From: Deltaproteobacteria bacterium
Lineage (GTDB): Bacteria; Desulfobacterota; GWC2-55-46; DRQE01
Reading direction: 5' to 3'
DNA length: 8,723 bases
Assembly: GCA_011371515.1 (NCBI GenBank)
Contig: DRQE01000031.1
Location: 1-8,723 of the forward strand
Part shown: positions 4,136 through 8,723 of the stretch, piece by piece
Layout: every line of letters begins with the position of its first letter
How positions within the stretch are numbered: position 1 is the stretch's first letter
Program-made: the position numbers and the translations under genes
Notes under the pieces: generated by a model
Databases searched by the model: none
What the model was told of the DNA's origin: nothing
The model's input: only the letters and a program-made list of their open reading frames with translations

Positions 4136-4861
4136 TTAAAGAACCCCTCCTATCTCGGCAAGTCTGTCCATGGAGGTTATTATTATCTCTTTTCTTCTTA
4201 TCTTTATTATTCCCTCTTCCTTGAAGCTCTTAAGAAGCCTTATGGATGTCTCCTGTGTTATGCCAAGAAGCTCGGCTATTTCAAGCCTTGAAAGGGTAAG
4301 GTTGAGCCTGACCCCTTCTTCACATTCGTCACCGTACTCAGTGGCAAGTGTGTGTAGAAGGCTTGCCAGTTTCTCCCTTGCGTTCATTATACCAAGGCTT
4401 CCTATACGCTCATATGCCTGATGAAGCTCTCTGCCAAGGGCTATAAGGATCTTGTTGGCTATGGTGGGTTTCTTGCGAAGTACCGAGAAAAAGTCCTCTT
4501 TCTTTATGAAACACACATCTGTATCTTCCATGGCTATGGCGTTGTTGCCGTAGTGTTCTTCTTCGTTGAAGACCTCGAGGCCAAAGAGTTCTCCGGGGGA
4601 GCATATCTTTATTATCTGCTCTCTGCCGTCCTTTGCCGTCCTTACAAGTTTCACACGGCCCGTTCTTACCACATAGAAACCCCTGCACTCATCTCCTTCC
4701 ATGAAGATGATTTCCTTTTTCCTGTAGGAGTGCATACTGACGACACCCTTGAGTGCGTCAAGCTCACTTTCTGTAAGGGTAGAGAACAAAGTGTTATCCT
4801 TTATTCTGCATTCACATATACCACATATGGCTTCCTGCATCTTTATAAATCTGTGTGGCAT
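4136..4861 (-). CDS. Crp/Fnr-family transcriptional regulator with N-terminal Cys cluster
   Basis: This 241-residue cytoplasmic DNA-binding protein has a cyclic-nucleotide-binding-like sensor domain at about 26-140 (FMEGDECRGFYVVRTGRVKL, then SPGELFG). A long dimerisation helix follows at about 140-170, then a winged helix-turn-helix at about 186-225 (LSRLEIAELLGITQETSIRLL). In the recognition helix Glu204 and Arg208 align with the base-contacting Glu and Arg of FNR and CRP, but Ile207 replaces the Ser that gives FNR its TTGAT preference. Cys13, Cys16 and Cys18 form a C-x2-C-x-C cluster; further Cys are at 59, 87, 117 and 180. This recalls FNR's four-Cys Fe-S site, but the spacing differs, so oxygen or redox sensing is only a suggestion. 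The start is supported by AAGGAGG ten nt upstream. The signal and target promoters are unknown. Confidence 0.92.
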   Translation of the reverse strand: MPHRFIKMQEAICGICECRIKDNTLFSTLTESELDALKGVVSMHSYRKKEIIFMEGDECRGFYVVRTGRVKLVRTAKDGREQIIKICSPGELFGLEVFNEEEHYGNNAIAMEDTDVCFIKKEDFFSVLRKKPTIANKILIALGRELHQAYERIGSLGIMNAREKLASLLHTLATEYGDECEEGVRLNLTLSRLEIAELLGITQETSIRLLKSFKEEGIIKIRRKEIIITSMDRLAEIGGVL

Positions 4862-4903: not shown

Positions 4904-6805
4904 TCAGTTATCATGGCTGCCTGCAAGCTCAGCATAGGGAAAGTCGTATCTGTACGGAACAACCGCCACACTTACGCCCATCTTCTTGACCTTCTTTGCA
5001 AGTTTTATTATGTCTCTTTCAGCAAGGGGTCTACCAGTCTTCCAGTCTATAGTTTGTAATTTTATCAAAATTTTGTCTGGAACTCCAACAATACGTTTAG
5101 CCCTGTCGGTCATCTTAAGTATAAGTTTTTCAACCTCTGCCATGTCCTTGCGCAGCTCATCGGATATTTGCTTCTGATATGCCATTATGGCGTAGTAGTC
5201 GAAGCCCTTCTGGGCAACCTTCTCAATATCCTGTGAGAACCATGCAAGGGCATTGGAGGGGCTCGTAAGGTTCTCGTACATAAGGTTTATGGCAAACTTA
5301 ACATCAGGGTTGAGCTCTCTTACGGTTCTTTTCAGCTCGTCTATTATGTGTATTATTCGGTTGTTCTTCCATGTAGCCCACTGCCAGAAAAGCGGGGTAT
5401 AGGTTATAATAGAGTCTTCTCTTATACGATAGAGTCTTGATGGTTCAAGCTCAAGGCCTGTCTCTTCCTTGAACCTTCTTATAGCCACGGGGGTCAAGCC
5501 CTCGTTGTACTTGAGTATAAGGTCGTCCTGAAAGAGGATGCCATCTATGGGGTATTTTGCAAGGTCACGGTAGAGTGCCTTTATGTGTTCCACCACTGTG
5601 TCGTTAAATAGGTCAAGCCCTCTGCACCTGAAGTATCTTTCTTTCCTTACATCGTATCCCCTGCAGGCAAGCTCTCCTATGTGCTCTATGCCGTAATTTG
5701 CGTATCTTGTGGTCATCCATGCAAACACCCTTATGCCCTCACGGTGAGCCATCTCAAGTATGGGTGTGAGTATGTCTGCCACAACAGGGGCATGGGAGGT
5801 GCGAAAATACACACCTGCCCGTGGTGTGTGTCTTGCAGGTCTTACGAAGGGATAGAAACGATCACCACGGTTGTGGAATACCCTCAATATTATAGTATCT
5901 ATGCCGTGTGTCTTAAGCCGCTTTATCTCTCCTTCCACATCCTCAAGGGTTCTGCCTGAAAAGAGCATCACCTGAACCGCCTTAAGGGGTCTGGTAGTGG
6001 TAATGCCGTCTCGGGGCTCTTTTTCTGCAAACATGGAGGGTTTGAAAGAGGGGCTTCTTCTTGGTGGCAGTTCAAACACATCTGTTGAGGGCATTCTCTT
6101 TGACGGCAGTGAGGCAAGGTAGAACTCGCCCGAAGGATGTCTTCGTTGTGGCAGCCCTGTCATGTAGTAGTCCACAGAGGGGCTTCTGCGCTCTGGTAGA
6201 TAAGCAGTGTATGGATAGGAGGGTAGCCTTTTCTTTGGAAGTGCTGCCATGTAGTCGTAAAAAGGGCGTCTTTTGGGTGGTAGAGACATTGCCCAGTAAA
6301 GCTCTGGAAAGCGTTTTTCAGGCAGTGCGTAGATGTAAGAAGAGGGCACCCTTTTGCGTGGAAGTGAGGAAAGATAGTCGTAATAGGGTGGCCTCTTTTC
6401 GGGAAGATGGGCAAGCCATCTCTGGGGCTCTGTAAGAAGCTCTATTGCCTGTAGCCTCTTTTCTGCAAGCCTTTGAAACTTTGATGCAGGCCAGTTTTCA
6501 AGGAACTGGGCAAACTGTAGTGCTGCCTCGGTGTAGTCGCCTTTAAGGAAGAGTGTATCTGCAAGGTAGAACTGGGCATCCATCTTAAGAGGGCTTAACG
6601 GATAACTTGCTATCAGGCGCTCAAGCTCTTTTATAGCCTTCTGGTAGTCCTTGAGCTCTCTTAAGACCATGGCATAGCGAAGCTGTGCCTTATCGTTTGG
6701 CACAGTGTAGACTGTGGTGGATGCCGTGGCTCTGCCCTGCAAAGAGAGGGCAAGAGACGATACGACCATGGCTACAACGAACAGCCTTTTAGCCAAAGAG
6801 CACAT
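4904..6805 (-). CDS. Secreted TPR / LPxxR-repeat / PgaB-like glycoside hydrolase protein
   Basis: This 633-residue protein has a signal peptide (residues 1 to about 28, basic then hydrophobic, cleavage near ATAS), so it acts in the periplasm or outside. Residues about 40-125 form two or three TPR-like helical pairs (YQKAIKELERLIASYP; GDYTEAALQFAQFLENWP). Residues 134-259 hold nine copies of an LPx(K/R)RxP motif. Residues about 273-633 match the C-terminal glycoside-hydrolase-like domain of PgaB (GHL13/GH153): VQVMLFSGRTLEDVEGEIKR, GIRVFAWM at 357-364, and DGILFQDD at 421-428. The Asp pair aligns with the catalytic Asp motif of PgaB, which cleaves poly-beta-1,6-GlcNAc. The PgaB deacetylase domain is absent. 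The start overlaps the radA end by 17 nt and has AAAGAGG six nt upstream. Domain identity is good; the substrate is inference, and no polysaccharide synthase lies nearby. Confidence 0.85.
   Translation of the reverse strand: MCSLAKRLFVVAMVVSSLALSLQGRATASTTVYTVPNDKAQLRYAMVLRELKDYQKAIKELERLIASYPLSPLKMDAQFYLADTLFLKGDYTEAALQFAQFLENWPASKFQRLAEKRLQAIELLTEPQRWLAHLPEKRPPYYDYLSSLPRKRVPSSYIYALPEKRFPELYWAMSLPPKRRPFYDYMAALPKKRLPSYPYTAYLPERRSPSVDYYMTGLPQRRHPSGEFYLASLPSKRMPSTDVFELPPRRSPSFKPSMFAEKEPRDGITTTRPLKAVQVMLFSGRTLEDVEGEIKRLKTHGIDTIILRVFHNRGDRFYPFVRPARHTPRAGVYFRTSHAPVVADILTPILEMAHREGIRVFAWMTTRYANYGIEHIGELACRGYDVRKERYFRCRGLDLFNDTVVEHIKALYRDLAKYPIDGILFQDDLILKYNEGLTPVAIRRFKEETGLELEPSRLYRIREDSIITYTPLFWQWATWKNNRIIHIIDELKRTVRELNPDVKFAINLMYENLTSPSNALAWFSQDIEKVAQKGFDYYAIMAYQKQISDELRKDMAEVEKLILKMTDRAKRIVGVPDKILIKLQTIDWKTGRPLAERDIIKLAKKVKKMGVSVAVVPYRYDFPYAELAGSHDN
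6029..6406 (-). repeat. Nine tandem LPx(K/R)RxP protein repeats
   Basis: Leu-Pro starts each unit at residues 134, 148, 161, 175, 189, 203, 218, 233 and 246, so the period is 13-15 residues. The core is L-P-x-(K/R)-R-x-P, usually followed by aromatic Tyr/Phe and a short Ala/Ser/Leu linker (for example LPKKRLPSYPYTAY, LPERRSPSVDYYMTG). The units are basic, proline-rich and aromatic. DNA copies differ at many positions, so this is old, selected protein repetition and not recent slippage. I do not recognise it as a named repeat; binding to an acidic polymer or to peptidoglycan is a guess. Confidence 0.85.
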
Positions 6806-8159
6806 CTATAGCCTCTTTAACCGTTTTTACTCCCTCAAGGGTGCATCTGCTCGGGCTTGATAGCGCCTTTATAGAGTCCTCCGCCAGTATGCATCTTTTG
6901 AAGCCCAGTTTTTCTGCCTCTTTTATGCGTTGCTCTGCTCTTGTAACCCCCCTTACCTCTCCGGCAAGACCCACCTCTCCAAAGAGCAGGGTGTCTTCAT
7001 CAACTGGTCTGTCAAGAAAGTTAGATGCGAGGGCTGCCACCACCGCAAGGTCTACCGCGGGCTCATCCACCCTTATGCCACCTGCAACCTTTACGAAGAT
7101 GTCGTGGTTCAGTATTCGTATGCCGGCCTTCTTCTCAAGCACTGCTCCTATCAGGGCAACCCTTGAGGGGTCAAGCCCCACAACGGTTCTTCGCGGCATG
7201 CCGAGATAGGACGGAGAGACCAGCGCCTGTATCTCCACAAGCACAACCCTTGTGCCCTCAAGGCTTGCCGTAACTGCCGAGCCCGAGCTACCCTCTGGCC
7301 TTTCGGCAAGGAATATCTCGGAGGGGTTTTTGACCTCTCTGAGTCCACGGTCTGCCATCTCGAACACCCCTATCTCCATTACCGAGCCGTAGCGGTTCTT
7401 TACGGCCCTTAAGATTCGGTAAGTGTTACCAGAAGAGCCATCGAAGTAGAGCACCGTATCTACCATGTGCTCCAGTACACGGGGACCTGCTATGGAGCCG
7501 TCCTTTGTTACATGCCCTACGAGAAAGAGGGGTATCTCGAGACTCTTTACCGTGGATATAAGAAGGGCAGTAACCTCACGCACCTGACTCACACTTCCGG
7601 GAGATGAAGAAAGCGCACCGCTGTAGAGGGTCTGCACAGAGTCCACCACCACACAGGATGGCAGAAGCTCTTTTATCTTCTCTGTTATCCTTTCTGCGAG
7701 TATCTCTGTCCACACAAGAAGACTGGGACTATCTATGCCAAGCCTTTCTGCACGCATCTTTATCTGGCGAGCCGATTCCTCACCCGATACATAGAGCACA
7801 AGGTTGCCCCTTTTTGCAACCTTTCCCATTGCCTGCAAAAGCAGTGTGGACTTTCCTATCCCGGGGTCTCCACCCACGAGCACCACGCCACCCCGCACCA
7901 TACCACCACCAAGAACCCTGTCGAACTCTTCCATGCCGGTGGGATGCCTTGACTGTATAGAGGTATCCACATCTGTAAGTGGAGATGGTGAGGAAGAGTC
8001 TACATCTATAAAGGTGCGTGCAGGAGAGGAAGTGGCTGGTTCATACATCCGTTCTTCAACAAGGGTGTTCCAGTTCTCACAGCCCGGACACCTGCCAAGC
8101 CACTTGACACTTGAGTACCCACAGCTCTGACAGACATACTCTGTTTTAACCTTTCCCAT
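6789..8159 (-). CDS. radA: DNA repair ATPase RadA (Sms)
   Basis: This 456-residue cytoplasmic RecA-like protein helps process recombination intermediates and acts as a DnaB-like branch-migration helicase. All family parts are present: a four-Cys zinc finger (Cys10, Cys13, Cys24, Cys27), Walker A GDPGIGKST at 97-105, Walker B-type VVVD at 170-173, the RadA motif KNRYG at 254-258, and the Lon-protease-like C-terminal domain from about 285, which has a structural role. KNRYG has Tyr where most RadA proteins have Phe, a mild change. Length is normal. It is the first gene of the minus-strand row. The ATG at 8159 gives the usual short basic lead before YVCQSCG. The Shine-Dalgarno GGAG is only 3 nt from this ATG, and ATG-GAG-TAG comes directly before it in frame. 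Confidence 0.97.
   Translation of the reverse strand: MGKVKTEYVCQSCGYSSVKWLGRCPGCENWNTLVEERMYEPATSSPARTFIDVDSSSPSPLTDVDTSIQSRHPTGMEEFDRVLGGGMVRGGVVLVGGDPGIGKSTLLLQAMGKVAKRGNLVLYVSGEESARQIKMRAERLGIDSPSLLVWTEILAERITEKIKELLPSCVVVDSVQTLYSGALSSSPGSVSQVREVTALLISTVKSLEIPLFLVGHVTKDGSIAGPRVLEHMVDTVLYFDGSSGNTYRILRAVKNRYGSVMEIGVFEMADRGLREVKNPSEIFLAERPEGSSGSAVTASLEGTRVVLVEIQALVSPSYLGMPRRTVVGLDPSRVALIGAVLEKKAGIRILNHDIFVKVAGGIRVDEPAVDLAVVAALASNFLDRPVDEDTLLFGEVGLAGEVRGVTRAEQRIKEAEKLGFKRCILAEDSIKALSSPSRCTLEGVKTVKEAIDVLFG
6812..6818 (-). promoter_or_regulatory. Ribosome binding site of the hydrolase gene, inside radA
   Basis: The minus strand reads AAAGAGG six nt before the ATG at 6805, within the last codons of radA. 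This supports the overlapping start and translational coupling. Confidence 0.55.
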
Positions 8160-8249: not shown

Positions 8250-8723
8250 ATGCAAGCGGACATTACAAACATACTAATTGAACTGAACAGGGCTGTCAAG
8301 ACACTTAACTTCTACCCCGAAGGACATCCAAACAGGGATGAGGCTGTCAAAAACTGTTACAGGCTGATAATGAACCTCATAAAAGAGGAAGGAGAGGCAA
8401 AGCTGGAGGCAGCAGATAAAAAGATTTCCATAAACGGTGTTCACAGTGCCCATCCATTTTCTTCATCCCTCGGAAGAGAGCTTTTCTTAAGAAAGATACA
8501 TACCGTAACATTTACAAAAGGGCTTACCGAACGGGACATGCTCACCTTCCTCATGCTTCTTGTGGCAAAACCCGAGGATATATTCCAGAGAGGTGGTGCA
8601 GAGAAGATAATAATAAGGGAGAACACACAGGGGCTGCTCGTAAACGACCTTACCTTTGAGATAATAGAGAGCGAAAGGGAAAAGGAAAGAGAGCGCTACT
8701 CAGATGCAGAAAGTCAGGAAGGC
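8250..8723 (+). CDS. Uncharacterised cytoplasmic protein, N-terminal 158 residues (runs off right edge)
   Basis: The frame opens at the ATG at 8250 and stays open for 158 codons to the window end. There is no signal peptide or membrane segment. It begins MQADITNILIELNRAVKTLN, then FYPEGHPN (residues 22-29), a helix-rich stretch, a short beta-like part (KKISINGVHSAHPF), LGRELFLRKIHTVTFTKGLT, and a charged tail (ESEREKERERYSDAE). This helix-plus-FYPEGHP opening resembles the N-terminal region of large helical or HEAT-repeat-containing proteins from Nitrospirota and Deltaproteobacteria, known to me only as hypotheticals. That resemblance is from memory. The Shine-Dalgarno is weak (AGGGAAAG, about 13 nt upstream), but this is the first ATG in frame and follows a strong promoter. 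Function is unknown. Confidence 0.75.
   Translation, partial: MQADITNILIELNRAVKTLNFYPEGHPNRDEAVKNCYRLIMNLIKEEGEAKLEAADKKISINGVHSAHPFSSSLGRELFLRKIHTVTFTKGLTERDMLTFLMLLVAKPEDIFQRGGAEKIIIRENTQGLLVNDLTFEIIESEREKERERYSDAESQEG

Follow-up and report, generated by a model that had tools for sequence, protein, structure and literature searches.

The window analyzed here is the whole stretch of 8,723 nucleotides, and its main subject is a gene for a 633-residue protein in which tetratricopeptide repeats (TPRs) and a repetitive linker precede a barrel of the type found at the C terminus of PgaB. Our preferred reading, held with about even confidence, is that this TPR-linked barrel hydrolyzes an N-acetylated glycan of the envelope, most probably peptidoglycan, rather than deacetylated poly-N-acetylglucosamine (dPNAG and PNAG for the deacetylated and acetylated polymer). 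The catalytic aspartate pair of PgaB was retained but the three aspartates of its subsite -3 were lost, and an N-acetylated glycan therefore appeared the likely substrate. A wider proposal, put forward tentatively, is that a TPR-linked branch of the GH153 clan in uncultured Thermodesulfobacteriota turned from trimming a biofilm polymer to cleaving peptidoglycan, with the deacetylase and the glucosamine pocket dropped together and a nine-fold LPxKRxP tether added in one genus.

An initial annotation, made from the sequence of the window, had described the C terminus as a PgaB-type domain and had seen TPRs instead of the N-terminal deacetylase. Both descriptions were borne out. Pfam GHL13 matched residues 330 to 612 with an E value of 2.9e-29 and 102.6 bits (cut-off, 27), which places the protein in the GH153/GHL13 fold family, while GHL10 at residues 293 to 548 scored far lower (E value of 1.7e-12, 47.5 bits; cut-off, 27.9). 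A Foldseek search with the AlphaFold2 (AF2) model returned PgaB first and Cwp19 next. The TIM barrel was common to the C-terminal domain of PgaB (GH153; Escherichia coli 4p7l, Bordetella bronchiseptica 6au1) over 325 aligned residues with 21% identity, as were the catalytic Asp466 (474 in B. bronchiseptica), the next Asp, and Glu474 in E. coli numbering. By its profile and catalytic Asp, the window protein is thus a member of the GH153 fold family. Judged by four features, it is not a PgaB. Its TIGR03938 score was 109.3 bits, below the cut-off of 321.9. No Pfam match to the CE4 deacetylase family (PF01522) was found in the 633 residues, and TPRs stand in its place (TPR_6, two stretches, the best at residues 40 to 71, E value of 1.4e-10; YfiO also matched). 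The aspartates 320, 322, and 358 were replaced, together with Asp472 and Tyr645. Finally, the gene lies outside a pga operon, with neither pgaA nor pgaC among the scanned neighbors.

In B. bronchiseptica PgaB, the catalytic acid is probably Asp474, and glucosamine (GlcN) is held at -3 by Asp326, Asp328, and Asp364 (PMC5933820). Asp474 corresponds to E. coli Asp466 (PMC13366581), and the E. coli -3 aspartates 320, 322, and 358 were assigned by us from motif and alignment. The C-terminal domain of PgaB is described as cleaving dPNAG and not PNAG (PMC9384988). Residues were mapped by a profile alignment plus a multiple alignment. Alignment A1 comprised 60 rows, including the window protein, with the others picked from the best 120 of 539 homologues, and 14 distant members were picked from fetched loci. 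Asp427/Asp428, which the initial annotation had put forward for comparison with the PgaB catalytic Asp, aligned with E. coli Asp466/Asp467 and were kept in all 74 relatives (60/60 rows of A1 and 14/14 distant members). The -3 aspartates were absent from the same 74. Position 280 was Met or Ala in 54 of the 60 A1 rows and Asp in none, position 282 was Phe in every A1 row, with hydrophobic residues there in the 14 distant members, and position 312 was Asn throughout (74/74). PgaB Asp472 was replaced by His or Tyr in 59/60 A1 rows, and Tyr645 was lost, with Val616 of the window protein preceding an invariant Pro. PgaB Glu607 aligned with Lys582, present in 60/60 A1 rows, and Glu576 with Ile547 or Ser548 depending on the method, an invariant Glu550 being nearby. 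One multiple alignment set Asp322 opposite a gap, where the RAVQV anchor instead supports Phe282. In VIA, the fold match to Cwp19 tied with an alpha-fucosidase and GH42 enzymes.

The three -3 aspartates were kept in 25/25 PgaB-type proteins of an E. coli search (the E. coli protein plus 24 picked from 120 listed in that search, one of which, P0131, had no deacetylase Pfam match) and in 30/30 PgaBs overall. The latter included five from the same phylum, which served as a control: all had the deacetylase, scored over the PgaB equivalog cut-off, and retained the three aspartates. Among their neighbors, the four downstream genes tested passed the PgaC cut-off, and a single upstream gene, compared with PgaA, scored just under its cut-off. 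These five PgaBs shared Gln465, Lys607, and Tyr at 543 with the TPR-barrel family, and three of them shared Glu511. The four residues were therefore rejected as marks of a new specificity and, as read from the alignments, are traits of the enzymes of the phylum, which leaves the -3 aspartates, Asp472, and Tyr645 as the positions that set the family apart. In a tree, 31 family members and 15 PgaBs fell on either side of one fully supported branch. As a separate observation, Gln465 and Lys607 replace His and Glu in PgaBs L070 to L074, which bears on the proposal of Glu607 as a catalytic partner in PgaB.

In the mechanism that we propose, Asp427 would act as the catalytic residue, as in PgaB, and the barrel would no longer require a deacetylated substrate. 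Since PgaB cuts a polymer whose GlcN its deacetylase made, loss of the GlcN pocket would go together with the lack of a deacetylase. The TPRs would anchor the enzyme at a partner in the envelope, and the substrate would be the cell's own wall. Peptidoglycan is the leading candidate, reached by elimination and by analogy with Cwp19, whose GHL10 barrel is described as a peptidoglycan lytic transglycosylase (PMC6016235, PMC5765458). The GHL10 domain of Cwp19 (5oq3) is described as a TIM barrel in which an important Asp stands where PgaB has Asp466 and which, like the barrel of the window protein, lacks an acidic partner on beta-7 (PMC5765458). Its relation in sequence is weaker, GHL13 rather than GHL10 being the closest family by the E values above, and Cwp19, unlike the window protein, is a Gram-positive surface protein with CWB2 repeats. 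The TPR-barrel family may represent a novel type of enzyme that cuts the wall.

The absence of a synthase gene nearby, claimed in the initial annotation, was confirmed among the window genes and scanned neighbors, and its proposal of a PNAG-cutting part did not hold for the substrate, in view of both the loss of the three GlcN-binding aspartates and the search for PgaC. No protein over the PgaC cut-off was found in the 47 relative-bearing genomes (E. coli as positive control; genome completeness unstated) or in the genome of the window itself, which comprises 1.30 Mb and is 92% complete. Weaker GT2 matches, below that cut-off, occurred in all 47 and also in 14 control genomes; the window's genome had one, of 27 bits, in a 247-residue protein. 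This genome also held three transpeptidase genes of peptidoglycan synthesis, a gene for a 341-residue polysaccharide deacetylase, and a second, weak deacetylase match inside a GH57 protein.

A possible, if rather unlikely, alternative is that the protein is a periplasmic chain trimmer for the cell's own exopolysaccharide or lipopolysaccharide, made by an unrecognized route. In the synthase-dependent systems that export PNAG, Pel, alginate, and cellulose, a periplasmic hydrolase is described alongside a TPR-type scaffold (PMC9384988), and both the subthreshold GT2 matches, shared with the controls, and a GT2 protein of 776 to 823 residues in the four relatives' genomes looked at would fit this. 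Conversely, no polysaccharide synthesis or export family was found among 20 representative neighbors scanned or the window's own genes, and the window's genome, of which 8% may be missing, had no Poly_export (Wza-type) or Wzy_C match. Wzy is a divergent family. In L062, L063, and L064, where both genes were scanned, a gene whose product joins a TPR array to an N-acetylglucosamine de-N-acetylase of the PIG-L type overlaps the GT2 synthase gene; in L065, the synthase half of the pair was recognized by translation only. This PgaC-like synthase, of the length given above, has an extra C-terminal region of ∼350 to 400 residues, with a subthreshold GHL10 match in L062, and the pair may constitute an undescribed system of synthase-hydrolase and TPR-deacetylase. 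Profile comparison gave no support (probability, 7) for a relationship between the barrel and the C-terminal region fused to GT2 in the four relatives.

The initial annotation suggested action on the matrix of another organism, but a PgaB-like dPNAG hydrolase directed at foreign biofilms is improbable. Such an enzyme would need no synthase of its own, in keeping with the lack of a PgaC over the cut-off, and the PgaB fold, the catalytic Asp, and the predicted export are all compatible with it. However, the GlcN-holding aspartates missing from all 74 relatives are kept by the five PgaBs of the same phylum, Asp472 and Tyr645 are replaced as well, and inheritance next to radA across families would be unlike a scavenging gene. 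Least probable of all is a noncatalytic glycan-binding barrel, as the C-terminal domain of PgaB was once described: Glu607, proposed from structure as the second catalytic residue of PgaB (PMC5765458), is Lys582 here, but the five same-phylum PgaBs also have Lys at 607, so that Lys582 is no mark of a dead enzyme unless those PgaBs are dead too, and the Asp427/Asp428 pair is invariant.

The initial annotation had also likened the TPRs to the polymer-guiding part of PgaA. The TPR domain of PgaA is described as acting on PgaB, so that there, too, TPRs cooperate with a GH153 domain (PMC9384988), but PgaA is a separate outer membrane porin, whereas the window protein, without a porin, has its short TPR of the BamD/CpoB type on one chain with the barrel. 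The TPR part of the family profile matched BamD (3qky, E value of 1.7e-11), CpoB (6g5s, 7.6e-9), and YbgF, and none of 29 PDB matches was named PgaA, in a library whose content for the PgaA TPR was unchecked; the likeness to PgaA was thus not upheld. The domain was modeled as helices, with a predicted local distance difference test score (pLDDT) of 78 to 96 per block.

The architecture had first seemed unfamiliar. Among the best 120 of the 539 homologues, about 105 had a TPR-type Pfam match (counted by eye) and none had PF01522, the homologues combining TPR and GHL13 coming mostly from uncultured Deltaproteobacteria. The combination is therefore common among the relatives, and the long repeat linker is the sole odd feature. 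A search of one literature collection (titles and abstract openings) returned no published description of a TPR-GH153 protein, and the branch is without description in the literature searched. Twelve of the 120 carry the public name PgaB (counted by eye), and these relatives are probably misnamed. Under that name they would be taken as evidence of PNAG biofilms, though none of the 47 genomes searched passed the PgaC cut-off. A -3 subsite replaced by nature, beside same-phylum PgaBs that keep it, offers a clean test of the residues that make GH153 demand a deacetylated substrate.

The linker was initially called a basic repeat domain. It contains nine LPx[K/R]R motifs and has a net charge of +11 over 134 residues; disorder was predicted for it, the mean pLDDT per ten-residue block being 31 to 47 from residue 141 to 270. 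The unit core is LPx[K/R]R-x-P, placed between TPR and barrel. Shuffling this stretch of 138 residues 20,000 times gave a mean of 0.04 motifs and a maximum of 2, and a chance origin was rejected. At least six such motifs were found only in P0001 to P0004 among the best 120 homologues; the long repeat linker was confined to one genus, and proteins of three further genera in the family showed no LPx[K/R]R motif on reading. Compared with a 78%-identical relative (L001), motif columns were 89% identical, with a ratio of nonsynonymous to synonymous change (dN/dS) of 0.04, and the other linker columns 51% identical, with a ratio of 0.14, both rough values since synonymous changes were near saturation. 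Hence, the motif is held by purifying selection within a stretch predicted to be disordered. Units at the same position in the window protein and P0003 were 63% identical, compared with 44% at other positions, indicating that the array is older than the split of the two. Recent DNA duplication was rejected as its source on the same grounds and because no tandem repeat was found over the linker at the DNA level. No further protein with the repeat was found in the window's genome at E values up to 10. The linker may serve as a tether or an envelope-binding motif.

The gene starts with ATG, and its first 17 bases are shared with the end of radA (Table 1). The predicted signal peptide, assigned by eye, has K6 and R7, a hydrophobic core starting at residue 9, and A-T-A preceding S29; no lipobox was seen by eye, and a periplasmic location is presumed. 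Cys381 and Cys394 were both kept in 60/60 rows of A1 and occurred together in none of the 14 distant members.

Table 1. Positions of the gene, the parts of its product, and its neighbors in the window
Feature	Position	Strand	Basis
Whole gene: signal peptide, TPR, LPxxR linker, GH153-related TIM barrel, 633 residues	4904..6805	-	Open reading frame, Pfam, AF2 model
Predicted Sec signal peptide, residues 1-28	6722..6805	-	By eye and hydrophobicity
TPR domain, BamD/CpoB/YbgF type, residues 38-133	6407..6694	-	Pfam, profile-to-PDB, model
Linker with predicted disorder, residues 134-262; nine LPx[K/R]R units, each 13-17 residues long	6020..6406	-	
GH153/GHL13-related TIM barrel, residues 274-630	4916..5986	-	
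Asp427-Asp428, aligned with E. coli PgaB Asp466-Asp467	5522..5527	-	Alignments
Met280-Leu-Phe282, at place of PgaB GlcN-binding Asp320-Leu-Asp322	5960..5968	-	Alignments
Asn312, at place of PgaB GlcN-binding Asp358	5870..5872	-	Alignments
Beta-hairpin carrying the candidate disulfide pair Cys381/Cys394	5624..5665	-	
radA, upstream neighbor	6789..8159	-	Pfam, neighborhoods
Crp/Fnr-type regulator, downstream neighbor	4136..4861	-	

A match of at least 180 bits was found in 51 of 395 sampled genomes of the phylum and in 15/17 of the same class (counted by eye), with only three candidates per genome scored. The barrel was present in 5/9 genomes of the same taxonomic family, and of five distant barrel proteins scanned, one had TPR matches and four had none. 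In 45 loci (44 fetched with a clustered relative, plus the window), radA lay upstream on the same strand in 39, the two genes overlapping by up to 103 bases or standing as much as 1493 bases apart; two of the remaining six start too close to a contig end to tell. Two genera of the family, both with genomes listed as 100% complete, had an empty site (L090 in G388 and L091 in G194), with no gene between radA and crp and the order radA, Crp regulator, histidine kinase, phosphofructokinase, and symporter kept. The 20 representative neighbors were mostly of housekeeping or regulatory families and were set aside as a clue to the substrate. From the radA linkage, the clean empty sites, and these neighbors, the gene seems to be inherited within the lineage and dispensable rather than part of an exopolysaccharide operon. 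A divergent partial open reading frame at 8250-8723 occupies the place of a HEAT-repeat protein gene that faces radA in many loci, the likeness being one of position. One homologue, P0100 (724 residues), has an extra Pfam domain, PF24125, apparently inserted in the barrel between the FHNKGDR and GVYF stretches.
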